IMG/VR virus record: IMGVR_UViG_3300012936_000247
Location: 1-20,195 of that record
Length of the DNA: 20,195 bases
Reading direction: 5' to 3' (one strand)
DNA from: a virus
Under the pieces are notes generated by a model. It saw nothing but the letters and a program-made list of their open reading frames with translations. It searched no databases and had not been told where the DNA came from. Each line of letters begins with the position of its first letter. Within the stretch, counting starts at the first letter, position 1. This document shows positions 7,301-20,195 of this stretch, piece after piece. The position numbers and the translations under genes were made by a program.

Positions 7301-7664
7301 GGGAAGTTATGTTTCTGGCCCAACTGCAACTTTGGTTGGCGAGGGTGGCCAAGGCGAGTACATCATCCCTGAAAGCAAGATGCGTGAAAGCATGGCGCGG
7401 TACTCGCGTGGTGCTCGCGGATCTTCTGTCATTCCCGAAACGGGGGCTTCTGGAACGTCAGGAGAAGGAGGCGGTGTAGCCGTTGCCGCACCAATCGATG
7501 TTCGGTACACCGTAGAACGCATCAACAGCGTTGATTATGTTACGGCTGATCAGTTCCAGCAAGGCATAAGGCAAGCTGCTGATCAGGGTGCTAAACAGGG
7601 TGAACAACAAACGCTTAAGCGGTTGCAGATGAGCAGCAGCACTCGTAAGAGGTTAGGAATGTGA
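4320..7664 (+). CDS. Tail tape measure protein
   Basis: At 1114 residues this is the tail length ruler, also acting in DNA ejection. It starts at GTG 4320 (M-A-D-Y-G-V-N-I); no good Shine-Dalgarno is visible. Long Lys/Glu/Ala-rich helices fill about residues 20-250 and 360-870. A very hydrophobic, glycine-rich block (about 288-340, with L-I-G-G-A-F-P-L-L-F-G and G-G-L-G-G-F-A-G-G-L-I-G-G) looks membrane-active. Near the C-terminus, A-L-R-N-L-F-A-R-T-A-D-H-F-A-D-M (about 910) and G-P-T-A-T-L-V-G-E-G-G (about 1000) followed by E-Y-I-I-P-E are hallmarks of tape measure C-termini. At the usual 0.15 nm per helical residue, the tail would be roughly 165 nm (inference). Much of the gene is A-rich, unlike the capsid gene. 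It ends in a 4-base overlap with the next GTG. Confidence 0.93.
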   Translation: MADYGVNIAVAVKNSQAVTQLSNKLKDTAAKIEHINTHFNSFANMTGKVLPGSIANFNKALSDASSNLNNAALGTKAATEAARDYVKAQNEANAALKEQQNLLRAARLAGETVSKKPFGPMPFGQNPGDVPTKGRPAFDPVEGRQQAIARMVMLETAADVKVADAKRNFILELGQIELDLDRKIRNREIDNIIEQVKLESKLQDDLFKSAIKKSEKRAQAFMEELGFRKGEELKAIAEVDRARKKAEGEAVRLTGQTSPIGGALGIPGSPAALLAAQKAQKLKSAQSSALIGGAFPLLFGQGLASSIGGGLGGFAGGLIGGEFGFGLSLIGTQIGSIITQANEMAAALGKAFRTGVGAAQALEEAIGELSVENKDYINNLEKSGQLGKQQRAILEQLEEKLGNGAKAFLESAKAADRADRSTQQFIKTLQRLIVPAGTEFDVLTTGKPVTEVEKTPELTKAAQRRIEVSNQSLEIEKLISSEQALQGTKLFKKIALAKQATAQAKFDLELTKLRAKEEQGIITEKEYENELEIKAIQLGRIMTDIEREKAEAIKNSAEEAKKLVDQLALGVARAQQPGVSLAKQIRNENKFLQNAVKFGEKSARDLQQITRLTMSGAMSREEATKLVAENRKLKDALDAGKTSEGKDFTPQLKKRLGIIEAQIKAEEEIVGLSQEGAAIISRKLAFEKRIAQIRETGKAERQKLADLEDISLSKSIEENGIKLATLQFEREIAVALEQSTKASEKTLEPVQKKLNALKDRNAFEREYGELIMSGSTTAAAKQVIEAKKQVKEIDELVKKQILSNQIQINILRVIVAQAINTDHHAEAQEALNDALEREKEIREEGEKAKGEVKGKKTPAENIEAEMKRIQGALNDLVDPSNQVIAAANAIGDAFSESFKGLITGSMSAQEALRNLFARTADHFADMAAQMIAHTIRMKILGIALNFFGSAAGSAAQGSFAGVPNSTLDSVLPSTSSLADAAASTPITPLRLNAEGSYVSGPTATLVGEGGQGEYIIPESKMRESMARYSRGARGSSVIPETGASGTSGEGGGVAVAAPIDVRYTVERINSVDYVTADQFQQGIRQAADQGAKQGEQQTLKRLQMSSSTRKRLGM

Positions 7665-8161
7665 CGCAGTTTGCTTTTGGCCATGTTTTACGAATCAAGG
7701 CAAAAAAGACCGTTGAATTTCGGTATCAAAACTTTTTTATTAACAAGCAACTAAACCATAAAGGCGCAACTGATGAAACGCCACAAAGTTATTTTTTTGT
7801 GCCTTTTGGTTTTTCTGGCGTCACCGTTAACCGCACAGGTGACGGACTTGAATCCACGCTTGTTTTTCCAAATAATGAACTAACTCGTAGTTGGGCGGTT
7901 GAAGCAATTCAAGATAGTCACATGATAGAGGTTGATGTTTTAATTATCGAAGACACTGACCCTGACACTGGCCTTACAGCAAACCACTCCACTGTCCATA
8001 CCTATACCGGCCAAGTCACTGGCGGGCAATGGGATAACGTCTCGCTCAACCTAGAGCTAAGTTCTGTTTTAGATGCCGTTGGAACGGATGTGCCAAGGCG
8101 ATCTTTGACGCAACGCATAGTTGGAAACTTGCCGATTAGCAACAGTGTCCGACTGCAGTGA
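7661..8161 (+). CDS. Minor tail protein, lambda gpL-like by position
   Basis: The 166-residue product starts at GTG 7661, overlapping the tape measure stop in GTGA. It is mostly beta-type sequence with F-F-V-P-F-G-F-S-G-V-T-V near residue 45 and a C-terminal segment V-P-R-R-S-L-T-Q-R-I-V-G-N-L-P followed by S-N-S-V-R-L. A tail of this form (R-R-x-L-T ... L-P-x-S-x-x-V-R-L) occurs in phage minor tail proteins encoded just before NlpC/P60 genes. No cysteine cluster like that binding Fe-S in lambda gpL is seen. It probably forms part of the tail tip, between tape measure and tip hub. The exact family is not assigned. Confidence 0.6.
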   Translation: MTQFAFGHVLRIKAKKTVEFRYQNFFINKQLNHKGATDETPQSYFFVPFGFSGVTVNRTGDGLESTLVFPNNELTRSWAVEAIQDSHMIEVDVLIIEDTDPDTGLTANHSTVHTYTGQVTGGQWDNVSLNLELSSVLDAVGTDVPRRSLTQRIVGNLPISNSVRLQ

Positions 8162-8513
8162 TCTCATCGGAATGCCGTATCGGCTGGGCGCTGACGGCAG
8201 TGATGGTTATATCGACTGCATCCACCTGTGTTATCAGGCATTGGAGCGGATGGGCATTGACGCGCCACCGTTTAAGCAATCTTGGTATAAAGCGACTAAG
8301 CGGGAGGTGTGCCGAGACTTGTTGACTTGGGGTTCCCGAGTAGAGCGGCCTCAGTATGATGGAGATATTCTGCTGCTATCGCAGCAATCCTGGGCATTTG
8401 CAGTCACATGGCAGACGGGAATCTTGTACGTCAATCGAAGAATGCAACAGGTGCAGTGGTCTACGGTCCAACTGTTTACGACGTACCACTGCTTCCGTAC
8501 GAGAAAGAGTTAA
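8145..8513 (+). CDS. NlpC/P60-like tail tip protein (lambda gpK-like), possibly inactive
   Basis: From GTG 8145 the product has 122 residues; TTG 8121 is an alternative start but would increase overlap with the previous gene to 41 bases. D-L-I-G-M-P-Y-R-L-G (residues 5-15) and G-Y-I-D-C-I-H-L-C (21-29) match the NlpC/P60 start and nucleophile region, with Cys25 as the candidate nucleophile. D-G-D-I-L-L-L (72-78) fits the next strand. The strand where the catalytic His is expected reads W-A-F-A-V-T-W (83-89), with no His. These proteins usually cut peptidoglycan at the tail tip; this one may be degenerate or use a changed active site. Its last 106 bases overlap the tip gene in another frame. 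The family call is fair, activity doubtful. Confidence 0.68.
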   Translation: MSDCSDLIGMPYRLGADGSDGYIDCIHLCYQALERMGIDAPPFKQSWYKATKREVCRDLLTWGSRVERPQYDGDILLLSQQSWAFAVTWQTGILYVNRRMQQVQWSTVQLFTTYHCFRTRKS

Positions 8514-11500
8514 TCAAGACGATTGGTATAACAGAAGAGGAATATCGCAAGTTTGCTGCCGAAGTACGCCGCAAAGGCGTGGTGCGTCCTGCTGAGTATG
8601 AGCATATTCCTGATATTCAGGCTGGAGAAACTGCAACAGTTATTTTAATTAACCTTGCCATTAGCTTGGTGCTGACTGGTGTTAGTTACCTGTTGACACC
8701 AAAGCCAAAGATGCCGGAGGCATCAAAGCGGTCGCAACTAGATCTTGGGAGTGTCAACGCAGGCAACCGTTTTACGCAAAGCCGGGGCTTTGACACGCTT
8801 AACGAGCTGGCAGATTATGGCGCACCCGTTCCAATTATTTTTGGTCTTTACGATGACGCAACAAATGCTGGCGGAATGCTTATTACGCCAAAACTTGTTT
8901 GGTCACGGATGTTTAGCCATGGGACGCAACAGTCTGCCAAGTTGATGTTTGTTGTCGGCGAACAAGGAGTTACTGACGATGAAAAACCTGATGGAATTGA
9001 GCCACCAAGCCTTGAGGGAATTTTTCTTGGCAATAATGCCCTAGATGCCATCCACAAAGACTTTTTTGCTTTTTACTGGAAACGAAATACGACTATACCC
9101 CGCAAAACTCGGATTAGGTTCAGCGACATAGTCCACGGAACTAACGGGACTTTAGATGCGGGAGACCCCTCTGTATTTTCTGAGGGTGAGGAAAATGATG
9201 ATGCTTTTACATGTCCAAGCAATGATACCAATAACTCAAAAAATTTCTGCCACGCATATTCGTTATCAAATAACACGCAATTTGGGGTTCACGCAGCGAT
9301 ACCGAATGGCAATGGCTATAGGGTAAATTATGAGACTGTATCAGTTATAGAGGATCTTACATCAGATGACGCTGATAAAGCAGAAAGACAACGAGGATTT
9401 GACTTGATGATGCGTCGGATAAAAATTGTTGGAGATAGTGATAAAAATGTAGACGCAGGTGACAGAGACGCTTTACGCGAACTTAAACCGCAAGGCATGG
9501 AAGGAACAGGGCGTCAATATAGCCCTCGTATGGGCTTAGTTAAATTAACAAGAAAATCAGATAATAGCTCAATTACTGTAGATGGTTTAGGCATAGACGA
9601 CAAACTCTCTGATGTGGTAGAAGTAGAAGAAGGGGATATAGTAAGATTTGTCATTGATCCGTCAAAAATACCTGAAGACAAATATCGCCGTGGATCAGAT
9701 AAGAGAGGAGAAAGCGTTGACGATATAAACCAAACAGTTGCTTCAGAGCAAATCGCGGCTGACAATGTCATGCAAATTGGCGAACAATTTGCGATTGGAA
9801 ATACTTTGTGGAAAGTAGTAAAAAGAAAGTTAACTCAATACGACCCTGACGTTTCAGATGCCGAAAGACAAATAATAACGTTGCGTTGTCTTAGCGTAGA
9901 TGAGTCACGAAATAAAAAAATTGGTCTTGTTAGTGAAAAGCTTGTAATTAAGCCTGAAGGCAAAGATTTTATTGCTGATAAAGGCGGCATTGGAGCTGGC
10001 TTTTTCCCTATTACGCGCGTTTCAACAGGGTTGGTAAGAAACAACAGACCTGCTGTCGTTACTGAAATTGGAATAAAAAGCAGAGTTTTTCAGCGTTTAA
10101 ATGGCTTATGCGCTTTTAATACCATTCCAAGCCCGGAAAAACTTAAAGAGCTTGACGAAAAAGAGGCACAAGTACGCTCTGGAACGTACACTGGGCACAT
10201 TAAAAGAACTTCTGTTTTTCAAGTATTTGTACGCCAGGCCGGTTTAGATGAAAATGGCAATAGTTTTAATTTTGAAAAAATAGATCATTACTTTGCAGTT
10301 ACAGGAAGCAAACCCGTTGATCAGTATAACTCTATACGTTTTATTCATCGCGCAGCGCCAGTTGAGTTAGAATATAAATTTGTAAGTATTCCCGGCTCTG
10401 AATTACGCAGCCTTGCAGATGAACAAGAAATAATCAGCCTTTCAGGTTCTTTTTCTGATGAAAAAACGAAATTGCTTCCTTTGCTTGCTGACGTTGGAAC
10501 CCTTGGAAGATTTGAGATTAAGGTTGCAGGAACAAGTGTTAGAAAAGACAGTATTAAAGTTAACAAAGAATTTATTAGAAATCCTGAAATAATAGAAGTC
10601 AAAAGCTCTGCAACTTCAGGTTTACCCGGAGTAATTTCTAGCAACTTTGTGTTGCCGTCTCAAGAAGAAACAGCAATAGTAGCAACAGCTATTAGAAAAA
10701 CTGTCAATATATCAAGCATCGATCCGCTTGGTATAGAAGGCTTTCCTGGGAAAAACGGAGCATTCTTTTATGAAATTTTTGGCCGTTGCGATAATGATCC
10801 AATCAATGAAGGGGGATTTAAAAGAACAACAACAAGAGAAAATTTTGGTATAGGTAGGTGGGTTATCGTTAAATGGGAAGTACAAAAAGTAAGACTGCCT
10901 GATTTGCATTATGCGCGTGTAAATAATGGGGTAAATTTTACATGGAAATTTATTAGTTGTGAACTTGTAAGCAGTTCAGACCAGTTTGATTTTAACGCTG
11001 GTCTTCAAATTAAACGCGGCCTTGGTTCTACAGAGGATGGAGGTAGTACAGCAGCTTACACAAACTCAAATCCATTTGTTCGTAATCACCCAAATGGAAC
11101 GATGACCTTTTCTGGTCAAAATTATGTAGTTACAGATATTGGCGTAGCAAGAGGGCCTTTAGGTCGAGAACAAGCTTATTATTACGAAGTTTTTGGCGAT
11201 CCCGAAACATTAGACACTGGAGAGTCAAAAACAGTTACTCGAACTTATGCGGAAGGGCTTAAAACTATTAGATTTAAATTAACAGCAACTGTCAAAAAAA
11301 TAGATGCAAGGGATTTTGCTGGTAAAATTAAAGTCTGGAATCATCCCAATAAAATTAAAGTTGTTGAAACAGGCACGACAACTAACTGGACAGAGGATGA
11401 AGTTTTTCCAGATATTGTCGTGATTGCTTCTAACAACCCATACAGAACTTCTTTTGATTTAGGCGGTTTTGAATATATTATTTCAGATATAAACACAAAA

Positions 11501-12895
11501 CCCATAACAATACCAACTGGCGAGCTATTCTTTGAATTTCAAAGTCAGTATGTAGATCTTAGTTTTTACAGAAGTTTCGTACAAAAATCAAATGAATCTG
11601 AGCCTGAACACGCTATTGTTTATGTAAATGAAATTGTTGAAAACGCAGAGATTCCAGAGTATAAAAATTTAACTCTTGCTGGTTTATCGCTAAAAGCAAG
11701 TCGTAATTTTACTAGTTTAGATCAACTGCGTTGCTGGCTAGGAAGTGGTTTGCATGTTAAAAGGTTGCATCCTAGCTTGAAGGTTTATGATCAGCAAGGC
11801 TCTGAAGCTAACCGCAAAGAAATTGGCCCAAGTAATTTATTTACTGATTTAGTTTTTTACCTGTTAACCGATCAAACAGGTGGAGCGGGAGCCTTGCTAA
11901 AAATAGATAAAAACAATCCAGTTCTGCTAGACAAAGATGGAGCAAGAGGAGAAAATTTAAGCGTTTTTAAAATTGCTTCTCGTTTTTTGCACACACAAAA
12001 GTTATTTTTTAATGGGGTGGTTGGCGATAGGACAAATCTTCGCCAGTACATTACTGACACGGCTCCGTACTTTTTGTTGAATTTTGTAATTACAGATGGT
12101 AAGTTTTCCCTAAAACCTGCAATACCTGTAATGGAAAAAAGCGGTCAAATTAACATTGGGCCGGTAGAAATAGATCAGCTTTTTACAGCTGGCAACATTT
12201 TAGAAGACAGTTATAAACTTGAGTATTTAAGAAGCGAAGAGCGTAGACCTTTTAATGCAGTGGTGCGTTATAGGGAAGAATCTAAGAACAAGCTACCTGA
12301 GGAAAAAACGGTACAAGTCAGCCTGAAAAGACAGCTTCAAAAACACGACATAGACGTATTGCCTCAAGAGCAATTTGACCTAACACAGTTCTGCACTTCA
12401 AGAACTCACGCAATTAAAGTTGCAAAATACTTTTTAGGGATTCGCGATTTAGTAACCCATACAATTTCTTTCTCAACAACTTTGCACGGGCTGAACTTAC
12501 GTGCTGGATCTTATATAAAAGTTATTACAAGTTCTAGCCCTTATCTTAGCGCAAATAATGGAACAGTAAGCTCCGCTGGAGTAGTAAATAGCTTGCAAGA
12601 CATGCCTGACAACCAATATAAAGTGTTTTTCTTTAAAACAAACTCGCAGGACGTTGAGGAAGGAATAATGCAAGTTAGTGATGGGAAAGTGTCCGATACA
12701 ACTTTTCACGACACAGTTTTCAGTGTTAAAAATGAAAACGTCTCACAAAACGTGTATGTTGTAGAGCAGCTGACTTTTTCTCAGGAAGGAACGGTGGACA
12801 TTGTTGCTTCAGAGCATCCTTGCGATGATGATGGGAGCAGCAAGCTTGCAAAACTAATTGCAAGTGAAGATTCTGTAATTATTGAATCAACCTAA
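8408..12895 (+). CDS. Tail tip / host specificity protein, fused gpI-like and gpJ-like parts
   Basis: At 1495 residues this is the second largest structural element of the tail. ATG 8408 lies inside the NlpC/P60-like gene; GTG 8456 is a later in-frame alternative. Residues 28-70 (L-L-P-Y-E-K-E-L ... P-A-E-Y-E-H-I-P-D) are a motif common in tip proteins of this type. A hydrophobic segment (76-96) followed by T-P-K-P-K resembles lambda gpI, and F-D-T-L-N-E-L-A-D-Y-G-A-P-V-P-I-I-F-G (128-146) resembles the start of gpJ hub domains. A later region with E-H-A-I-V-Y-V-N-E and L-A-G-L-S-L-K-A-S (about 1075-1110) is also gpJ-like. Residues about 770-1060 contain imperfect repeats. It should form the tail hub and base of the host-binding tip. 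The DNA is A/T-rich for most of its length. Confidence 0.88.
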   Translation: MADGNLVRQSKNATGAVVYGPTVYDVPLLPYEKELIKTIGITEEEYRKFAAEVRRKGVVRPAEYEHIPDIQAGETATVILINLAISLVLTGVSYLLTPKPKMPEASKRSQLDLGSVNAGNRFTQSRGFDTLNELADYGAPVPIIFGLYDDATNAGGMLITPKLVWSRMFSHGTQQSAKLMFVVGEQGVTDDEKPDGIEPPSLEGIFLGNNALDAIHKDFFAFYWKRNTTIPRKTRIRFSDIVHGTNGTLDAGDPSVFSEGEENDDAFTCPSNDTNNSKNFCHAYSLSNNTQFGVHAAIPNGNGYRVNYETVSVIEDLTSDDADKAERQRGFDLMMRRIKIVGDSDKNVDAGDRDALRELKPQGMEGTGRQYSPRMGLVKLTRKSDNSSITVDGLGIDDKLSDVVEVEEGDIVRFVIDPSKIPEDKYRRGSDKRGESVDDINQTVASEQIAADNVMQIGEQFAIGNTLWKVVKRKLTQYDPDVSDAERQIITLRCLSVDESRNKKIGLVSEKLVIKPEGKDFIADKGGIGAGFFPITRVSTGLVRNNRPAVVTEIGIKSRVFQRLNGLCAFNTIPSPEKLKELDEKEAQVRSGTYTGHIKRTSVFQVFVRQAGLDENGNSFNFEKIDHYFAVTGSKPVDQYNSIRFIHRAAPVELEYKFVSIPGSELRSLADEQEIISLSGSFSDEKTKLLPLLADVGTLGRFEIKVAGTSVRKDSIKVNKEFIRNPEIIEVKSSATSGLPGVISSNFVLPSQEETAIVATAIRKTVNISSIDPLGIEGFPGKNGAFFYEIFGRCDNDPINEGGFKRTTTRENFGIGRWVIVKWEVQKVRLPDLHYARVNNGVNFTWKFISCELVSSSDQFDFNAGLQIKRGLGSTEDGGSTAAYTNSNPFVRNHPNGTMTFSGQNYVVTDIGVARGPLGREQAYYYEVFGDPETLDTGESKTVTRTYAEGLKTIRFKLTATVKKIDARDFAGKIKVWNHPNKIKVVETGTTTNWTEDEVFPDIVVIASNNPYRTSFDLGGFEYIISDINTKPITIPTGELFFEFQSQYVDLSFYRSFVQKSNESEPEHAIVYVNEIVENAEIPEYKNLTLAGLSLKASRNFTSLDQLRCWLGSGLHVKRLHPSLKVYDQQGSEANRKEIGPSNLFTDLVFYLLTDQTGGAGALLKIDKNNPVLLDKDGARGENLSVFKIASRFLHTQKLFFNGVVGDRTNLRQYITDTAPYFLLNFVITDGKFSLKPAIPVMEKSGQINIGPVEIDQLFTAGNILEDSYKLEYLRSEERRPFNAVVRYREESKNKLPEEKTVQVSLKRQLQKHDIDVLPQEQFDLTQFCTSRTHAIKVAKYFLGIRDLVTHTISFSTTLHGLNLRAGSYIKVITSSSPYLSANNGTVSSAGVVNSLQDMPDNQYKVFFFKTNSQDVEEGIMQVSDGKVSDTTFHDTVFSVKNENVSQNVYVVEQLTFSQEGTVDIVASEHPCDDDGSSKLAKLIASEDSVIIEST

Positions 12896-13674
12896 TGGCT
12901 TTTCCAATTCTCAAGCCTTCTGGCCGTACTTTTGAGCCTGGAGGCTATCCAGTCAAAACGTTCAAGTCGCAAAGCGGGGCTGAAACTCGAATTTTGTATG
13001 GCAGTCAGCGAACTGATGTCAAGCTCAGCTTGTCCTATGCCAACATTGGCGATCCAAACGTTGAGCTATTTCTTGACCATTACGATGAAATGCAAGGCAC
13101 GTTTCAAACCTTTAGTTTGCCTGGTCAGGCTCTAGGAGGTTGGAGCGGCAATAAGGACGCTTTGAGGCCATCTAAAATTGAAATTTCAACCGTTACCTAC
13201 CGAGTAGAGGTGGTTAGCACTAGTGGGGGCAACAAATACCGTTTTGATGGAGTTACTTCTGACGCACAAACTTTGGAATTGACTGAAGGTACAGTGTATT
13301 TATTTAGTCAGCAGCACAATTCCAACGCAGGCCACCCCTTGCGGTTTTCTGAGGACAGCGATGGAACGCACGGGGGTGGAACGGAGTACACCACAGGCGT
13401 AACGACATTTGGGACGCCTGGGCAGGATGGTTCATATACAAGAATTCTTGTAGCAAAAGACGCTCCAACGCTGTATTACTACTGCAGTGTTCATTCTGGA
13501 ATGGGAGGCCAAGCCAATACGCCTGCTGCAACAACAACCGCTGTCAATTCTGGCAACACGGCTGAATACAGATATGAGGGTCCACCACAGGTTGTTCAGG
13601 TGCGACCTGGGGTAAGCACTGTTACAGTGAATCTGATTGGCGTGACCACTGATTCTGCGAGGAATGCTTCCTGA
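12895..13674 (+). CDS. gpM-like minor tail protein with inserted cupredoxin-like domain
   Basis: This 259-residue protein appears to have a split outer domain. Residues 1-98 (G-Y-P-V-K-T-F-K-S-Q-S-G, R-I-L-Y-G, L-S-L-S-Y-A-N-I) and 222-250 (A-E-Y-R-Y-E-G-P-P-Q-V, then V-T-V-N-L-I-G-V) resemble the two ends of lambda gpM-like tail tip proteins. Between them, about 102-208, lies a module with G-H-P-L-R-F (His147) and Y-Y-Y-C-S-V-H-S-G-M-G-G (Cys197, His200, Met203). This is the ligand order of type 1 copper cupredoxins, although plastocyanin has four rather than two residues between His and Met. Such modules recur in marine phage structural proteins. The start overlaps the tip gene stop as TAATG. 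Copper binding is inferred. Confidence 0.72.
   Translation: MAFPILKPSGRTFEPGGYPVKTFKSQSGAETRILYGSQRTDVKLSLSYANIGDPNVELFLDHYDEMQGTFQTFSLPGQALGGWSGNKDALRPSKIEISTVTYRVEVVSTSGGNKYRFDGVTSDAQTLELTEGTVYLFSQQHNSNAGHPLRFSEDSDGTHGGGTEYTTGVTTFGTPGQDGSYTRILVAKDAPTLYYYCSVHSGMGGQANTPAATTTAVNSGNTAEYRYEGPPQVVQVRPGVSTVTVNLIGVTTDSARNAS
13200..13518 (+). other. Cupredoxin-like insert within the gpM-like gene
   Basis: This stretch encodes residues about 102-208 of the gene at 12895-13674. It contains the candidate copper ligands His147, Cys197, His200 and Met203, and a Gly/Thr-rich loop with S-D-G-T-H-G-G-G-T-E-Y. Boundaries are approximate, set by where gpM-like sequence stops and resumes. Confidence 0.6.
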
Positions 13675-14117
13675 TGTCAAAGGTCTACTCCGGCAGAGAT
13701 GGGGTATTGCAAGTCGGTGGAACGACTCTTGCCAAGGTCGTTAATTTTCAGCTGTCTGCAAATTTAGAAACACTTGAAACAACATCATTAAACGAGCATA
13801 TTCGTGTTTATGTGCCTGGCGTAGTGGGTTATAGCGGCAGCGCGACGTTGCTGTATTACAAAGAGGATAACGGTACTTTTAACACCGCAAACATCCTTAA
13901 CAGTCTTTATAAGACCGGCCCTGATGGCGTTAGCAGCAGCGATATTGTTGAGTTAACTTTTCGCTGGGTTGATGGAGTGGACAATAAAGACATTGTATTA
14001 GACGCATATATCACCAGTGCATCCATTGGCGCGGCAACAGGCGATATTGTCCGAGCTGAGATCGCGTTCCAAGGGACCGGTACATTGAAATCTGTAACCA
14101 TAAATACTCCCTCATGA
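13674..14117 (+). CDS. Tail tube (major tail) protein
   Basis: The 147-residue product is a compact beta-rich protein: a short N-terminal strand region with G-R-D-G-V-L-Q-V-G-G, then V-N-F-Q-L-S-A-N-L-E-T-L-E-T-T, a G-Y-S-G-S-A-T-L-L-Y-Y strand, a helix-like N-T-A-N-I-L-N-S-L-Y, and final strands with V-L-D-A-Y-I-T-S-A-S and A-E-I-A-F-Q-G-T-G. This order is typical of tube proteins, with E-T-x-E-T-T-S-L marking the subunit-joining region. It should polymerise around the tape measure protein. GAGGA (13659-13663) lies 10 bases before ATG 13674, which overlaps the previous stop (TGATG). Tube genes normally lie before the chaperone pair; here it lies after the tip gene. Confidence 0.78.
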   Translation: MSKVYSGRDGVLQVGGTTLAKVVNFQLSANLETLETTSLNEHIRVYVPGVVGYSGSATLLYYKEDNGTFNTANILNSLYKTGPDGVSSSDIVELTFRWVDGVDNKDIVLDAYITSASIGAATGDIVRAEIAFQGTGTLKSVTINTPS

Positions 14118-15028
14118 CAGTATATCTTGGAACTCACGGCGAAATTGAGTTAAAGCGTGTCTTTAATGGCGGCAAGTTGCAAGCAAGCATCAATGCTGCC
14201 GCAAACAATGCTGGTGATGTAAATGCAACTGAAAAACGATTTGGTTTTGATTTTAAGCACGGTGACTCTTTATCAGACGATTTAAAACACGGCTTGCTTT
14301 TAACAGGTGATCAAATTGAGATTACAACCACTGATAACACTGCCCTTGATTTTATTGACAGCTATACAGATTCAAGCGTTAAAAAATTTATTCACGTTGA
14401 CGAGCTAGACGGCATCAGGCTTTACAACAGTTTTGCCCATGCGGTCAGTGGCGGCAAAGCAAACGCAATTGCTCTTGCATGTTCAGGCAGCCTGAGAAAC
14501 GTCGAAATAGTTGTTGAATCTGCTGCGCCGCGTCTTTTGGCTCAAGTCAACAGTTTTGAGATAAATACCGAGCGTGAAACAGTAGACACGACAGTGTTGT
14601 CTGATGAATTTCGTTCCAGAGTCAATACGTTAATTTCTGGTTCTGGTCGCATCAGTGCGTTTTGGGAGTACACAGGTGACACGGCTAATGAGTTGCCGAT
14701 GTATTTATATGAGTTAGCGCATCGCACCAAGGTTGGTAGCAATTTTGTCGGGCGTTTTTACATTAAAAAAGCTGGGTATAACCCGAGCGGTGTAGCGGAA
14801 CGAAATAATGATGAGATTTGGTGGAACGTGGAAGGAATTATCACGGCAGCAGCCATTCAGTTTTCACCTGACAGCACAGTGCAAATCACTGCTGATTTCG
14901 TAACGACAGGCGAACTGCGTCTACGAATGGACCTTGACCCTCCGGTGGGGATCTTGCAAGAGGACAATGGTCAAATACGCTTGGATCAAGACGGTGCGGC
15001 TAAACTTGGCCTACAGCAGCAAACCTGA
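14114..15028 (+). CDS. Second tail-tube-like protein with an extra N-terminal domain
   Basis: This 304-residue protein overlaps the tube gene by ATGA. Its C-terminal half (about 139-275) parallels the 147-residue tube protein strand by strand: V-N-S-F-E-I-N-T-E-R-E-T-V-D-T-T against V-N-F-Q-L-S-A-N-L-E-T-L-E-T-T, S-G-S-G-R-I-S-A-F-W-E-Y against G-Y-S-G-S-A-T-L-L-Y-Y, L-P-M-Y-L-Y-E-L against a similar helix, then I-T-A-A-A-I-Q-F and I-T-A-D-F-V-T-T-G-E-L against I-T-S-A-S-I and A-E-I-A-F-Q-G-T-G-T-L. The N-terminal about 138 residues do not match a family I know. It could be a minor tube ring at the tail end, a decorated tube subunit, or an adaptor between tube and fibres. The likeness is seen; the role is inference. 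Confidence 0.65.
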   Translation: MTVYLGTHGEIELKRVFNGGKLQASINAAANNAGDVNATEKRFGFDFKHGDSLSDDLKHGLLLTGDQIEITTTDNTALDFIDSYTDSSVKKFIHVDELDGIRLYNSFAHAVSGGKANAIALACSGSLRNVEIVVESAAPRLLAQVNSFEINTERETVDTTVLSDEFRSRVNTLISGSGRISAFWEYTGDTANELPMYLYELAHRTKVGSNFVGRFYIKKAGYNPSGVAERNNDEIWWNVEGIITAAAIQFSPDSTVQITADFVTTGELRLRMDLDPPVGILQEDNGQIRLDQDGAAKLGLQQQT

Positions 15029-15045: not shown

Positions 15046-17478
15046 ATGGCTGATCTAAAAATTAGTGAGCTTAATGCTCTAACCGGCTCGGCTCTAGCCA
15101 CTGGTGATTTAGTTGCTGTTGTCGATAGCAGTGCCAGTGAAACCAAAAAGCTGACTATCGGTGATTTGATTGCTAATGGCGTCACAGTCATTAGTGATGC
15201 AACGATCCCTGGCGCAAAAATTTTATTTGCTGATGGCGGCATCGCTACAGCAAAAATTGCTGATTCAGCAGTCTCAACAGCAAAGGTCGCTGACGACGCA
15301 ATTACGGCTGCAAAGTTGGGCAATGAATCAACCGTTGATCTAGTTACAACGCTTCCAGCCTCTGGTGTTTTTACAGGGCAGCTAGCTGTCGATACGGACG
15401 ATAATTCTCTGTATTGCTGGGACGGTAGTGCATGGTTAAGCCTTAAATCTCCTGGTTCAATCAACAGTGTTGCTGGTAGCACTGTTGGCGTTGTTGACAT
15501 TACTGTTACTACAACAAGTGGAGTCGCAACAATTGCAGCAGTCATAAACGATACGTCTGCAGCGAACCAGTTTTTAGCTGGTCCTACTAGCGGTGGTGGT
15601 GCAGTCGAATATCGAACGATTGACGGCAGCGACATCCCTGTCGCAACTAGCAGCGCCAAAGGCGGTGTTGTTGTTAATGGTGAAGGACTCCGAATGGATT
15701 CCAACACCATTGAAGTGGATAATGATGTAACTGCTAGCACGACGCATCATGTTGTTACTTACAACGCAAAAGGTTTAATTACTGGCGGTCGTGCATTAAC
15801 TTCTGCCGATTTGCCTGCTGCAACCAGCTCTGCAAAAGGTGCTGTTATTCCTGGCGCTGGACTTTCAGTTGATGGTAGTGGAAATATAGGTATTACTAAT
15901 ACGGTAACGCCTGGCACCTATACAAAGGTGACTGTTACGGCGCAGGGTGTTGTTTCTACTGGCGACAGTTTAGCTGCTTCTGACGTTCCAAATCTTGCTG
16001 CATCGCAGATTACAAGTGGCACGTTACCAGCAGCCAGAATCGCGTCTGATGCGATTACAGCAGACAAGCTAGCCGATCAATCAACTGTCAAGTTTGGCGG
16101 TGCTGGTGCAACTGATAACATTGTTACCTTCCCTGATGGTGACTTTAAGGGTCAGTTCTTTTTTGACGAGTCAACTGACGGCGATCTTTATATTTTTACA
16201 GGTCAATCTTTTCAACCAATTACAGTTATTAGCGGCAACCTTGTAAACGCTGGAACGTACAACGCTAATACCAATCAGCTGACCAGTGTAACGACACAAG
16301 GCTCTGCAGCTGGTTTTACTGCTGGAGCGGCACTGCCTGCACCGGCTAGTACCAACCTTAATTACTACGTTGTTGTTGACACTTCAGGCACAGGTTCAGG
16401 TAATGCACCTGCTGTTGCGTTAGCACCCCCCGATATGCTCGTAAGTTTGGGCACAGGGGCAACGTTCTCGTTAATCGATGTTTCCAATGCAATCGCTGGG
16501 CAAACTGCTGCAAACATTTCAGTTGTTCCGGTTGGTGGTATTGCAGCGACCAATGTCCAGTCTGCAATTCAAGAGTTAGACACCGAAAAAATTGGTGCTG
16601 CTAGCCCAACATTTACTGGAACTGTATTGCTGGGTCAGAACGCTGTATTAGCGTTTGAGGGTTCATCAGATGATGGAAACGAAACAACAATTACGGTTAC
16701 CAACCCTACTGCTGACAGGTCAATTGTTTTTCCTGATGTCAGCGGAAACGTTGTAACGACTGGCGATACTGGAACGATTACTAGCACAATGATTGCGAAC
16801 GCAACGATTGCGGACGCAGACATTAGTTCAACCGCAGAAATTGCAGTTAGCAAGCTTGCAAACGGTACTGCGCGTCAACTGCTGCAGACTGACGCAGCTG
16901 GAACGGGTGTTGAATTTACCGATGACGTAGACATCCCCGGCACGTTGGATGTCACTGGAGCGGTGACGCTTGATTCGACGTTGCAGGTTGATGGCGTTGC
17001 GACGTTTAACGCCAACATCGTGATGGAGGGCACGTCTGCTGATGACCATGAACTGACGCTAACTTGCAATCCGACTGCTGATGTAACGGTTACGCTGCCT
17101 GATGCAACGACAACTGTTGCTGGTCTTGCTGTTGCTCAGAGCTTTACAAAGGCACAGCGAGGTACGCCTGTTGCTTTGACCGATGCAGCAACGATTGCAG
17201 TTGACCTGAGCTTGGGTAACAACTTCAGCGTGACGCTTGCAGGCAACCGGACATTAGGCGCTCCAAGCAATGTAACTGCTGGTCAGTCTGGTGTAATTGT
17301 GGTTACGCAGGACGGTACGGGAGGCCACACGTTGTCATACAACACGGTGTATAAGTTTGCTGGCGGCTCCATACCGACTGTCACTACGACGGCCAATGCT
17401 GTTTCGATCCTTGCTTACTATGTGGAAAGCTCCAGCCGCATTACGATGACGGCATTGCTAGACACTAAGCGGACATGA
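15046..17478 (+). CDS. Tail fibre, repeat-rich
   Basis: The 810-residue protein is dominated by Ala, Thr, Gly, Ser, Val and Asp, with few aromatic or basic residues, as in elongated trimeric fibres. It starts M-A-D-L-K-I-S-E-L, a beginning common in cyanophage fibre proteins, with GGAG (15032-15035) 10 bases upstream. D-(I/L/V)-P units recur at residues 196, 255 and 313 with A-T-S-S-A-K-G after the first two; D-A-I-T-A-(A/D)-K-L occurs near 84 and 335; N-P-T-A-D plus a P-D strand occurs at 553 and 675. The C-terminal part (about 700-810) looks more globular. No intramolecular chaperone peptidase motif was recognised. It probably contributes to host recognition and overlaps the next gene by ATGA. 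Confidence 0.82.
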   Translation: MADLKISELNALTGSALATGDLVAVVDSSASETKKLTIGDLIANGVTVISDATIPGAKILFADGGIATAKIADSAVSTAKVADDAITAAKLGNESTVDLVTTLPASGVFTGQLAVDTDDNSLYCWDGSAWLSLKSPGSINSVAGSTVGVVDITVTTTSGVATIAAVINDTSAANQFLAGPTSGGGAVEYRTIDGSDIPVATSSAKGGVVVNGEGLRMDSNTIEVDNDVTASTTHHVVTYNAKGLITGGRALTSADLPAATSSAKGAVIPGAGLSVDGSGNIGITNTVTPGTYTKVTVTAQGVVSTGDSLAASDVPNLAASQITSGTLPAARIASDAITADKLADQSTVKFGGAGATDNIVTFPDGDFKGQFFFDESTDGDLYIFTGQSFQPITVISGNLVNAGTYNANTNQLTSVTTQGSAAGFTAGAALPAPASTNLNYYVVVDTSGTGSGNAPAVALAPPDMLVSLGTGATFSLIDVSNAIAGQTAANISVVPVGGIAATNVQSAIQELDTEKIGAASPTFTGTVLLGQNAVLAFEGSSDDGNETTITVTNPTADRSIVFPDVSGNVVTTGDTGTITSTMIANATIADADISSTAEIAVSKLANGTARQLLQTDAAGTGVEFTDDVDIPGTLDVTGAVTLDSTLQVDGVATFNANIVMEGTSADDHELTLTCNPTADVTVTLPDATTTVAGLAVAQSFTKAQRGTPVALTDAATIAVDLSLGNNFSVTLAGNRTLGAPSNVTAGQSGVIVVTQDGTGGHTLSYNTVYKFAGGSIPTVTTTANAVSILAYYVESSSRITMTALLDTKRT
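15631..16035 (+). repeat. Degenerate fibre repeat, period about 58-59 codons
   Basis: Within the fibre gene, three units begin with Asp-(Ile/Leu/Val)-Pro at codons 196, 255 and 313 (bases 15631, 15808, 15982). The first two continue with A-T-S-S-A-K-G and similar following sequence; the third is more diverged. The likeness is clear at protein level but weak at DNA level. Confidence 0.55.
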
Positions 17479-20195
17479 GTATTCCTGGAGCGGCAAGTCC
17501 GCTGTTTATTGGAGCGGCGGTTGCTGAGGTTGCGGCGCACCAAATTGACCGTTCGCTTAGATTTTCGTCAGGAGACTCGGCCTATCTTAATCGCACTCCA
17601 AGTTCTGCAGGCAACCGGAAGACGTGGACTTGGAGCGGGTGGGTAAAAAGAAGCACGGTTGATGGTAGTTACATGGGTATTTTTGGCGCAGGCGGTGGCT
17701 CAACTCGTGATCGTATTCAATTTTTTAACGACCAAAAACTTGTTGTTAATTTCAACGACGGGAACGATGGAGTTCTCAAAACAAGTCAAGTTTTTCGTGA
17801 CCCAAGCGCCTGGCAACACATTGTTGTCGCTTTAGATACTACTCAGGCCACAGCCTCTAACAGGCTAAAAATATATGTTAATGGCTCACAGGTTGAAGAT
17901 TTTGATACAGAAACCTATCCTTCTCAAGACTACCAAACTCGGCTAAACAACAATATCGCAACCTACATTGGTCAATCGTCTAGTAACAATCTTTATTTTG
18001 ATGGCTATTTGGCCGAAGTTTATTTTATCGACGGTCAGGCACTTGATCCGACTAACTTTGGTAAAACAAGTAGTGACGGCGTTTGGGTGCCTATTGAATT
18101 TGCTGGTTCCTATACGTCAACTTCAACATCTACAACATTAAGTCAAACAGGCTGGACGGTATCATCTCCAACCTCAGAAAATAACATCTGGGACGGAAAC
18201 ACAAGCTCGGTATCCAATGGACACAATGGTGGAATAATTGGTACTGTAAGCTTCTCGCCGCCGCTAACTAATGTTACTAAGGTTGAAGTTTATCAACAAA
18301 ATTACCACCATTATTTAAATGGAAGCCAAGTCACTACGCCCGAAAGTGGCACCACGTGGCATACTCTTTATGACAATAGCAGCAGCCCTATTACGCTTAA
18401 TTCAGTAGGTAATTCATACACTAATAATACGCAAACGGTTGATATTATGGCTATACGTATTAACGATAGCGTCGTTAATTCAAAGACCTGGACTCCACCA
18501 AGCGGTGTTGGGGTGCAAGCAGGAGGTCTAAATAGTTTTTATCTAAAATTTGCCGATAATTCATCAAACGCTGCGCTTGGAACGGACAGCAGCGGTAACA
18601 GCAATACTTGGACCGTTAACAACCTCTCTGTTGCATCAGGGTCTGGCAACGACAGCTTGATCGACACGCCGACGAATTACGAAGCGGCGTCCGGCAATAA
18701 CGGCGGCAACTATGCGACGTTGAATCCTCTGCAAGCAGGAAGCCAATGCACCTTGTCAAACGGAAATCTTGATCTTGTATGGACTGGGTCTGCGGGTCAT
18801 GCGGCAGGTTCAACCATTGCCGTCTCGTCGGGCAAATGGTACATGGAATTTACCGTCGGCTCAAAACGAGGGTTAATTGGAATAATTCCAAGTACTTATA
18901 CGAGCCAACTAAACAATTGGCCCGGCAATAGCGCCTACGGTTCTGACAGCTATGGCTACTACGGCATCGGCGGTAATTTATACAACAACAGCAGCAATAG
19001 CGCGTATGGAGCCGGTTGGACAACCAATGATGTTATTGGAGTTGCCTTGGATCTTGACGCAGGCAATCTAGTTTTTTACAAAAACGGTTCTAGCCAAGGG
19101 ACTGCCGCAACTGGGTTGTCTGGCTCTTACATCTTTGCTATTGGTTTTTCTGATTTCAGCAGTGGAGGCGACCCTGGCAGCGTCAACTTCGGCCAACGTC
19201 CATTTGCGATCTCTTCTGTACCAACCGGCCACAAGTCACTCTGCACTGCAAATCTTCCCGATCCCGACTCAACGATTGCCGATAGTTCGGATCACTTTGA
19301 TACCAAGCTTTATACCGGTAACGGAAGCACGCAATCAATCAGTGGTTACGATTTTAGCCCGGATTTGCTATGGATTAAAAATCGTAGTTATTCATCCTCC
19401 CATGAACTTTATGACACTGTGCGCGGTGCCACTAAACGCCTAACGATTTATTACGGAGGTGAACAAACTGTTTCCGGTGTTACTGCATTTAATTCTGATG
19501 GATTTTCGCTTGGTAGCGACAACGGTGCCAATAGAAACTCAGATTCTTTTGTAGCCTGGGCATGGGGTACTGGAGCGTCAACAGATAGCAACACTGACGG
19601 CAGCATTACTACTAATGTCAGAACCAATCCGTCTGCCGGATTTTCAATTATTAACTACCAGGGAAATAGTACATCTGGAGCAACTATTGGTCACAATTTA
19701 AACAGTGCTCCTGAATGGCTAATGTTTAAAGCTACAAATGCCGCTTACGACTGGTACGTTTATCACAAAGCTGTTGGTCATACTAAATTCCTAACTTTAA
19801 ACAACAATCATGTTGCCAATACAAGTAATTTTTTAAATAACACTGCGCCGACAAACTCTGTAATTACTTTAGGTAATGTCAGTGATGTTAATTATAATAA
19901 CACAAACCTAATTTGCTATGCGTGGACTTCTGTTGCCGGATATAGCAGCTTCGGTAGTTATGTAGGAAATGGATCTGCAGATGGTCCGCTTGTAGCGTTA
20001 TCGTTTCGGCCCGCATTTCTCTTACTGAAACGCATCAATACCACAGGTAACTGGTTAATTTATGATAATAGACGCGAAGGATACAATTTTAATAATGATC
20101 CTTTGTACGCAAACCTTGCTGACGCCGAAGGGACTACGGATTACTTGGATCTTCTAAGTAATGGTTTTAAGATTCGGAGCACGCATGGCTCAGTC
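17475..20195 (+). CDS. Large LamG/SPRY-like appendage protein, cut by right window edge
   Basis: ATG 17475 overlaps the fibre stop as ATGA, and the frame stays open for 907 codons to the last base. Residues about 24-200 are LamG (concanavalin-like) in style: S-L-R-F-S-S-G-D-S-A-Y-L, T-W-T-W-S-G-W-V-K-R, W-Q-H-I-V-V-A-L-D, and F-D-G-Y-L-A-E-V-Y-F-I-D-G. Residues about 216-345 form another beta-type region with many Ser, Thr and Asn. About 415-580 is SPRY-like (G-K-W-Y-M-E-F-T-V ... D-V-I-G-V-A-L-D-L-D ... V-F-Y-K-N-G). From about 610 there are repeated units built on F-S-P-D-L-L-W-I-K-N-R, A-P-E-W-L-M-F-K and R-P-A-F-L-L-L-K-R. These folds bind sugars or proteins, so this is a likely receptor-binding or capsid/tail-decorating appendage. 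Confidence 0.8.
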   Translation, partial: MSIPGAASPLFIGAAVAEVAAHQIDRSLRFSSGDSAYLNRTPSSAGNRKTWTWSGWVKRSTVDGSYMGIFGAGGGSTRDRIQFFNDQKLVVNFNDGNDGVLKTSQVFRDPSAWQHIVVALDTTQATASNRLKIYVNGSQVEDFDTETYPSQDYQTRLNNNIATYIGQSSSNNLYFDGYLAEVYFIDGQALDPTNFGKTSSDGVWVPIEFAGSYTSTSTSTTLSQTGWTVSSPTSENNIWDGNTSSVSNGHNGGIIGTVSFSPPLTNVTKVEVYQQNYHHYLNGSQVTTPESGTTWHTLYDNSSSPITLNSVGNSYTNNTQTVDIMAIRINDSVVNSKTWTPPSGVGVQAGGLNSFYLKFADNSSNAALGTDSSGNSNTWTVNNLSVASGSGNDSLIDTPTNYEAASGNNGGNYATLNPLQAGSQCTLSNGNLDLVWTGSAGHAAGSTIAVSSGKWYMEFTVGSKRGLIGIIPSTYTSQLNNWPGNSAYGSDSYGYYGIGGNLYNNSSNSAYGAGWTTNDVIGVALDLDAGNLVFYKNGSSQGTAATGLSGSYIFAIGFSDFSSGGDPGSVNFGQRPFAISSVPTGHKSLCTANLPDPDSTIADSSDHFDTKLYTGNGSTQSISGYDFSPDLLWIKNRSYSSSHELYDTVRGATKRLTIYYGGEQTVSGVTAFNSDGFSLGSDNGANRNSDSFVAWAWGTGASTDSNTDGSITTNVRTNPSAGFSIINYQGNSTSGATIGHNLNSAPEWLMFKATNAAYDWYVYHKAVGHTKFLTLNNNHVANTSNFLNNTAPTNSVITLGNVSDVNYNNTNLICYAWTSVAGYSSFGSYVGNGSADGPLVALSFRPAFLLLKRINTTGNWLIYDNRREGYNFNNDPLYANLADAEGTTDYLDLLSNGFKIRSTHGSV

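Follow-up and report, generated by a model that had tools for sequence, protein, structure and literature searches.

In bacteriophage lambda the tail-tip protein gpL carries a [4Fe-4S] cluster, and gpM is a protein of 109 amino acids (aa) with no inserted domain. HxH iron sites occur in T4 gp37 and in the fibres of Alteromonas phage R22Y, for which a Trojan-horse mode of attachment has been proposed (PMC11705849). Dit proteins with carbohydrate modules ("evolved Dit") take part in adsorption, and the Dit protein of T5 has an OB-fold domain besides its Dit core (PMC9863714). In this work we analyzed a 20,195-base virus record from IMG/VR (IMGVR_UViG_3300012936_000247; "the window" hereafter means this whole stretch of DNA) from a virus known here by its sequence alone, in which a gpM/Dit-like minor tail protein of 259 aa (12895..13674, stop codon included, on the plus strand like all features located below; delineated by its open reading frame (ORF), a PHROG match and structural models) is interrupted by what is almost certainly a cupredoxin domain.

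According to the models, the inserted segment would be a portable cupredoxin domain bearing the full set of predicted type 1 copper ligands (His-Cys-His-Met, with a C-x2-H-x2-M loop). In its predicted fold and in the order of the ligands, a His followed by C-x2-H-x2-M, it resembles the type 1 cupredoxins, such as rusticyanin, the N-terminal domain of Hyphomicrobium denitrificans nitrite reductase (HdNiR), plastocyanin, pseudoazurin and amicyanin. Unlike these, it belongs to a virion protein, has no sequence match in PDB or Pfam beyond weak ones to PF00127 in 3 of 29 members, and contains a long conserved stretch, GTHGGGxEYTTGVTxxGTPG, between the first His and the Cys. With the evolved Dit proteins (PMC9863714, PMC6669499), of which the cases that we found described come from phages of Gram-positive hosts, it shares the presence of an accessory domain on a Dit-type tail-tip protein; the added domain is however cupredoxin-like and not a carbohydrate-binding module, so the window protein may at most work like an evolved Dit and is not a member of that group. 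With the HxH iron fibres and lambda gpL it shares the location of a metal site, here predicted, in a protein of the fibre or tail tip, whereas the metal, the ligands and the fold are different and a whole predicted blue-copper-type domain is present here. In the open-licence literature we found no description of a cupredoxin- or plastocyanin-like domain in phage tails.

Fold and predicted copper site of the insert

The inserted domain encompasses residues 99-211 (~112 aa; 13189..13527), as delimited by profile, alignment and structure comparison. It is flanked by an N-side linker (residues 89-98; 13159..13188), within or beside a segment of low predicted local distance difference test score (pLDDT; residues 82-96), and by a C-side linker (residues 212-224; 13528..13566), which holds another such segment (214-221). 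In the full-length AlphaFold model both linkers are poor, and the insert is predicted confidently (ten-residue blocks at 81 to 95) as a Greek-key β-sandwich of the cupredoxin type. Foldseek alone, run on the full model, listed antigen-binding antibody fragments (Fabs) beside cupredoxins, and a second look with VIA, for residues 96-215, separated the two (HdNiR N-terminal cupredoxin domain, 2dv6_A, Z-score: 9.9, 105 residues aligned, 3.0 Å; rusticyanin, 8.5; Ssl1 laccase, 8.2; McoA, 6.8; plastocyanin, 5.9; pseudoazurin, 5.4), with cupredoxins spanning Z-scores of 9.9-5.2, a pseudoazurin with an amicyanin loop (2ux6) among them, and Fabs at 4.1 and below. The profile-profile comparison with blue copper proteins from SAR86 and other genomes (probability 93.5%, P-value 2.3e-7) placed H147, C197 and H200 on the ligand columns. 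Both results agree with a sequence-only reading of the window that had proposed a cupredoxin-like insert.

Searches of sequence databases were less informative. Whether the protein or the module profile was the query, PDB sequence searches returned only antibody chains (E-value 0.3-0.9), which we read as β-sandwich noise, and neither the window protein nor the module matched any Pfam or NCBIfam family above threshold. PF00127 (Copper-bind) did not match the window member and matched 3 of 29 members weakly (best E-value 0.017, below the gathering threshold); no curated family was found for the domain.

The sequence-only reading had named His147, Cys197, His200 and Met203 as ligands, and the ORF has exactly these residues at these positions (codons 13333..13335, 13483..13485, 13492..13494 and 13501..13503, respectively), Met203 being the predicted axial ligand. 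The spacing of the C-x2-H-x2-M loop equals that in amicyanin, whose ligands are Cys92, His95 and Met98. All four residues were invariant among the 69 and then 99 unique copies that were collected first, partly by means of short conserved peptides and hence with a bias. The set was widened to 144 unique sequences by tblastn of phage records and an iterative profile search; 138 of these span the site, and all 138 retain the four ligands. The same holds for 14 of 14 non-redundant copies that are only 24-43% identical to the window domain, where just six of 83 columns are invariant and four of the six are the ligands (hypergeometric probability ~8e-6). The neighbors of the predicted metal site (YYYCxxHSGMGG) are among the most conserved residues. 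His159 was also considered as a ligand and rejected, as it varied already in the first copy sets and is missing in about one sixth of the copies; apparent ligand losses in three contigs (L133, L160 and L162) turned out to be contig ends.

An additional set came from a search with the whole profile, not the motif, that was positive in 29 of 61 relatives of one SAR86 genome and also covered one more genome. It comprises 27 copies, a few of which had already been counted above, and 26 of them keep the four ligands, down to a profile E-value of ~1e-9. The remaining copy (L225, residues 79-175) has Asn, Ser, Ala and Met at the ligand positions and is still recognized with an E-value of 1e-22; since the same 3684-aa frame contains an intact copy beside this one, which lacks the His, Cys and His ligands, it provides a natural control. 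Among phages, the diverged second copy in S-CAM4 (L221, residues ~853-1020), whose loop reads C-x6-H and lacks the Met, is a real exception. The pattern of the fold can thus survive without the ligands, and the almost universal retention of the ligands elsewhere is therefore evidence for selection on metal binding. From the ligand set and its conservation we strongly infer that the domain binds copper, and we regard it as likely that it does so in the virion.

The outer protein and the distribution of the domain

Residues 2-82 of the window protein match phrog_15525, annotated as "minor tail protein" (E-value 7.8e-18), and the gene is placed directly after a gpJ-like gene, the ATG of the former overlapping the TAA of the latter; family match and position both agree with a tail-tip protein. 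In lambda the gpM gene lies before gpL, and here the gpM-like gene follows the gpJ-like one. The outer part consists of an N-terminal segment (residues 1-88; 12895..13158), delimited by the phrog_15525 match and by alignments with homologs devoid of the module, and of C-terminal strands (residues 225-250, YRYEGPPQ...LIGV; 13567..13644) that align with the C-terminal strands of the same homologs. Residues ~98-214, on the other hand, match parts of tail-fibre, baseplate-wedge and unknown families (phrog_27200, 30742, 693, 677 and 708).

Searches with an alignment of the outer N-terminal segment identified homologs without the module, 20 of which are 66-70% identical in the outer part and about 124-132 aa long. 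In these 20 proteins the N-terminal segment stops, for example at 'GGWKGNKDALGAGESGNN', and picks up again at 'YRYEGPPQV'; a stretch resembling 'GGWKGNKDAL' is followed by a few residues and then by 'NNYRYEGPPQVAQVRPGISTVTVNLIGVL', where the window protein has both linkers and the whole domain. S-CBS3 gp17/gp18 and S-LBS1 A24/A26 likewise lack the domain. In a tree built from the outer part alone, presence or absence of the domain requires one or two switches (a single one in 70% of bootstrap trees). The coexistence of occupied and empty sites and the small number of switches therefore indicate that the domain is an insert, rarely gained or lost in the gpM-like protein. The interruption of a gpM-like sequence, as the sequence-only reading had it, is thereby borne out, with ~112 residues in place of the ~107 it had given; the homologs without the insert that it had called for exclude that the segment is an integral part of the fold. 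The arrangement, an accessory domain inserted into the core, is that of an evolved Dit, with the caution that the gpM/Dit-like core was recognized with Z-scores below 8.

To assess the outer fold, one homolog without the insert (L174) was modeled alone, with moderate confidence (pLDDT 66). VIA reported lambda gpM as its best match (8iyk_E, Z-score: 7.9, 90 residues aligned, 2.8 Å), followed by T5 pb9 (7.5) and the T1 tail tip (7.0), which is also in line with the earlier assignment of the insert to a gpM-like protein. The outer part of the full-length model matches T5 pb9 (7qg9_V) over residues 1-251 (Z-score: 7.2). Unlike the present protein, lambda gpM has no inserted domain and pb9 carries an OB fold as its extra domain; to our knowledge, no metal ligands are known in pb9. 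On the basis of these models "gpM-like" appears to be the best available name for the outer part.

The domain recurs in at least 595 viral contig stretches, some of which were hit by way of the outer part, and in isolates of marine phages, namely phages of Synechococcus, Prochlorococcus, Pelagibacter and Methylophilales; S-TIM5, P-SSM2 and HTVC028P are examples of isolates that carry it. It may be N-terminal, internal or C-terminal, in proteins of ~180 to more than 1600 aa that are annotated as tail fiber, baseplate wedge tail fiber connector (gp9), virion structural protein or hypothetical. Despite otherwise different tail proteins, the domain is mostly 60-80% identical to that of the window (alignment A1). 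Given its recurrence and the invariant ligand columns, the insert is not a product of chance. Some small proteins (L061 4581-5324, L117 260-1078 and similar) combine a phrog_28581-type N-terminus (KEWNGLLV...) with a cupredoxin domain at the end.

Two contigs syntenic with the window, both with an empty site in the gpM-like protein, carry the domain elsewhere. In L195 it is fused to the N-terminus of a phrog_25799 protein, which is 36% identical over 162 aa to the protein encoded at 7661-8161 of the window. In L196 it lies inside a fibre homologous to that encoded at 17475-20195, inserted between the equivalents of fibre residues 704 and 705 (~nt 19587) according to the blastp segments, a site that is empty in the window. 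L195, L196 and every searched record with a domain-bearing gpM contain one copy each; no copy was found in two longer records (34 and 27 kb), both of them fragments, whose gpM is devoid of the module. In the module tree the gpM copies cluster; the L195 copy falls within this cluster or next to it, and the fibre copies follow (SH-aLRT 82-94).

Copies were also found in metagenome-assembled genomes (MAGs) and single-cell genomes labeled Pelagibacteraceae, Verrucomicrobia, Flavobacteriaceae and others. Since the "Flavobacteriaceae" copy (L087) is a gpM-type protein like that of the window and a Pelagibacteraceae copy (L095) matches tail-fibre families, these are at least partly phage DNA. In SAR86 genomes the domain occurs in short and long proteins, most with lipoprotein-like N-terminal signals (e.g. 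LFILAACGGGGG), and also in proteins of more than 3400 aa; judging from these signals, the SAR86 relatives probably sit outside the cytoplasm, as expected of a cupredoxin. A plasmid search with the SAR86 lipoprotein gave no match, and beside the SAR86 lipoprotein genes a cellular partner was sought and only a large secreted-looking protein without a Pfam family was found. Two SAR86 proteins encoded beside or near cupredoxin-domain lipoprotein genes (L104 6319-9219, 966 aa, and L116 413-3598, 1061 aa) are related to each other (24% over ~1080 columns, E-value 2e-41), the former without any Pfam family.

Possible roles of the domain

Our best reading is that the insert is a surface-displayed type 1 copper domain tethered to the tail tip by flexible linkers. 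The cupredoxin domain would occupy a loop that separates the N-terminal segment of a gpM/Dit-like tail-tip protein from its last strands, and if the protein forms a ring, as Dit and gpM proteins do, several copies would be displayed around the tail tip. Synthesized without metal in the cytoplasm of the host, the copies could be loaded with copper at lysis or later. Once loaded, the domain might serve as an accessory module for attachment or docking, a marine equivalent of the carbohydrate modules found in evolved Dit proteins; its copper centre could itself take part in, or gate, the contact with a widely shared partner on the cell surface. We put this explanation as a whole, a copper cupredoxin at the tail tip with a docking role, at about an even chance. 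The docking role taken by itself is a tentative proposal drawn by analogy with the evolved Dit proteins, and the part that copper would play in contact with the host is a guess. A host-specific receptor-binding surface is unlikely, because the domain is alike across different tail proteins and most conserved around the metal loop; a partner or ligand shared by marine cells, or copper itself, fits better.

Several observations weigh against this picture. The selection of the first copies by peptides inflates conservation, and the copper geometry is deduced, not read from coordinates. In many phages of this group the gpM-like protein has no insert and can therefore dispense with it. Z-scores of 7-8 for the outer fold can reflect a mere common arrangement, the model behind them having a pLDDT of 66, and the full-length model has a predicted template modelling score (pTM) of 0.49, which leaves the placement of the domain uncertain; the alignment used for this model set the empty-site strand YRYE on the YRFD of the module, which may have lowered its quality. 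Finally, docking is argued by analogy, with a partner that is hypothetical.

The first of two main rivals, a purely structural role in which the domain would be a β-sandwich decoration or spacer merely stabilized by the metal and useful for virion stability or weak Ig-like adhesion, is suggested by the frequency of Ig-like and other β-sandwich decorations on phage tails and by the occurrence of the domain at either end of, or inside, unrelated proteins. We nevertheless consider it unlikely, because a spacer alone should show frequent loss of ligands, which are almost never lost, and because the copy devoid of three of the four ligands keeps its sequence pattern, so that the metal is not needed for persistence. 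We rank below it, as improbable, the second, a redox role in which the type 1 centre would exchange electrons with a redox protein of the host surface upon docking, or with reactive oxygen species, and thereby protect the virion in sunlit water or sense the cell. Cupredoxins transfer electrons through just such a complete Cys-His2-Met set with a conserved short loop, the conservation of the residues beside it would fit, and the SAR86 relatives resemble exported lipoproteins; yet no redox partner domain is fused or adjacent in the phages examined, the hosts span different phyla and the virion itself lacks a source of electrons.

Quite improbable in our view is the most far-reaching form of the docking proposal, a working blue-copper centre in the infection machinery of marine phages, spread over cyanophages, pelagiphages and others, with which the tail tip would dock on a copper-handling or redox surface protein of the host or whose copper state would gate attachment. 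By analogy, copper-gated attachment could be regarded as the copper counterpart of the proposed iron "Trojan horse". That the segment is a passenger, spread by easy recombination between tail genes and of little use to the phage, would explain its presence in many unrelated proteins and its dispensability in the gpM-like one, but is very improbable, as the conservation of the ligands at 24-43% identity requires that purifying selection has acted on the site over a long time. An Ig-like domain with a chance C-x2-H-x2-M motif, to which the antibody chains from PDB sequence searches and the Fabs listed by Foldseek might point, is hardly credible given the VIA ranking, the match to the blue copper profile and the co-invariance of the distant His147 with the Cys/His/Met loop.

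Copper binding by the virions, which we consider likely, would make those of many marine phages, including cyanophages and pelagiphages, copper proteins and possibly virus-borne copper ligands in the sea; it would add a metal-centred element to phage tails, perhaps to adsorption, and define a new cupredoxin family common to phages and SAR86. The domain also allows part of many proteins listed as "tail fiber" or "hypothetical" in records of cyanophages and pelagiphages to be named. With natural occupied and empty gpM homologs, and a domain that shifts between neighboring tail genes, its role is testable among close relatives.

Gene neighbourhood of the window

The window encodes, in this order, a major head protein (phrog_247), a head-tail adaptor, a tail terminator, a tail assembly chaperone and a tape measure protein, the latter named by position and length. 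These are followed by a phrog_25799 protein, an NlpC/P60-like protein, a 1495-aa gpJ-like protein, the gpM/Dit-like protein, two tail-tube-like proteins and fibre genes. Marine virus AG-345-A17 has a head protein 75.5% identical to that of the window, those of cyanosiphoviruses are 28-35% identical to it, and distant relatives of the outer tail-tip protein occur in Synechococcus phages S-CBS1, S-CBS3 and S-LBS1 and in Microcystis phage Mic1; a cyanobacterial host is therefore plausible for the window virus, as far as such kinship can indicate it.

The phrog_25799 tail protein (7661..8161; E-value 3.9e-9), located between the tape measure and NlpC/P60 genes, is near the position of lambda gpL and has no cysteines, so that a gpL-type Fe-S cluster is not possible. 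In the gpJ-like ORF (8408-12895) residues 76-147, near its start, match the tail assembly protein family phrog_32, which suggests a putative gpI-gpJ fusion. The two tail-tube-like genes (13674-14117 and 14114-15028; phrog_1407, and phrog_10528 weakly) are consecutive and lie downstream of the gpJ-like gene, not upstream of the tape measure gene. The fibre or virion structural protein (17475..20195; phrog_19943, E-value 3.8e-187) is open at its 3' side and runs past the end of the window, and a further cupredoxin copy is possible downstream.

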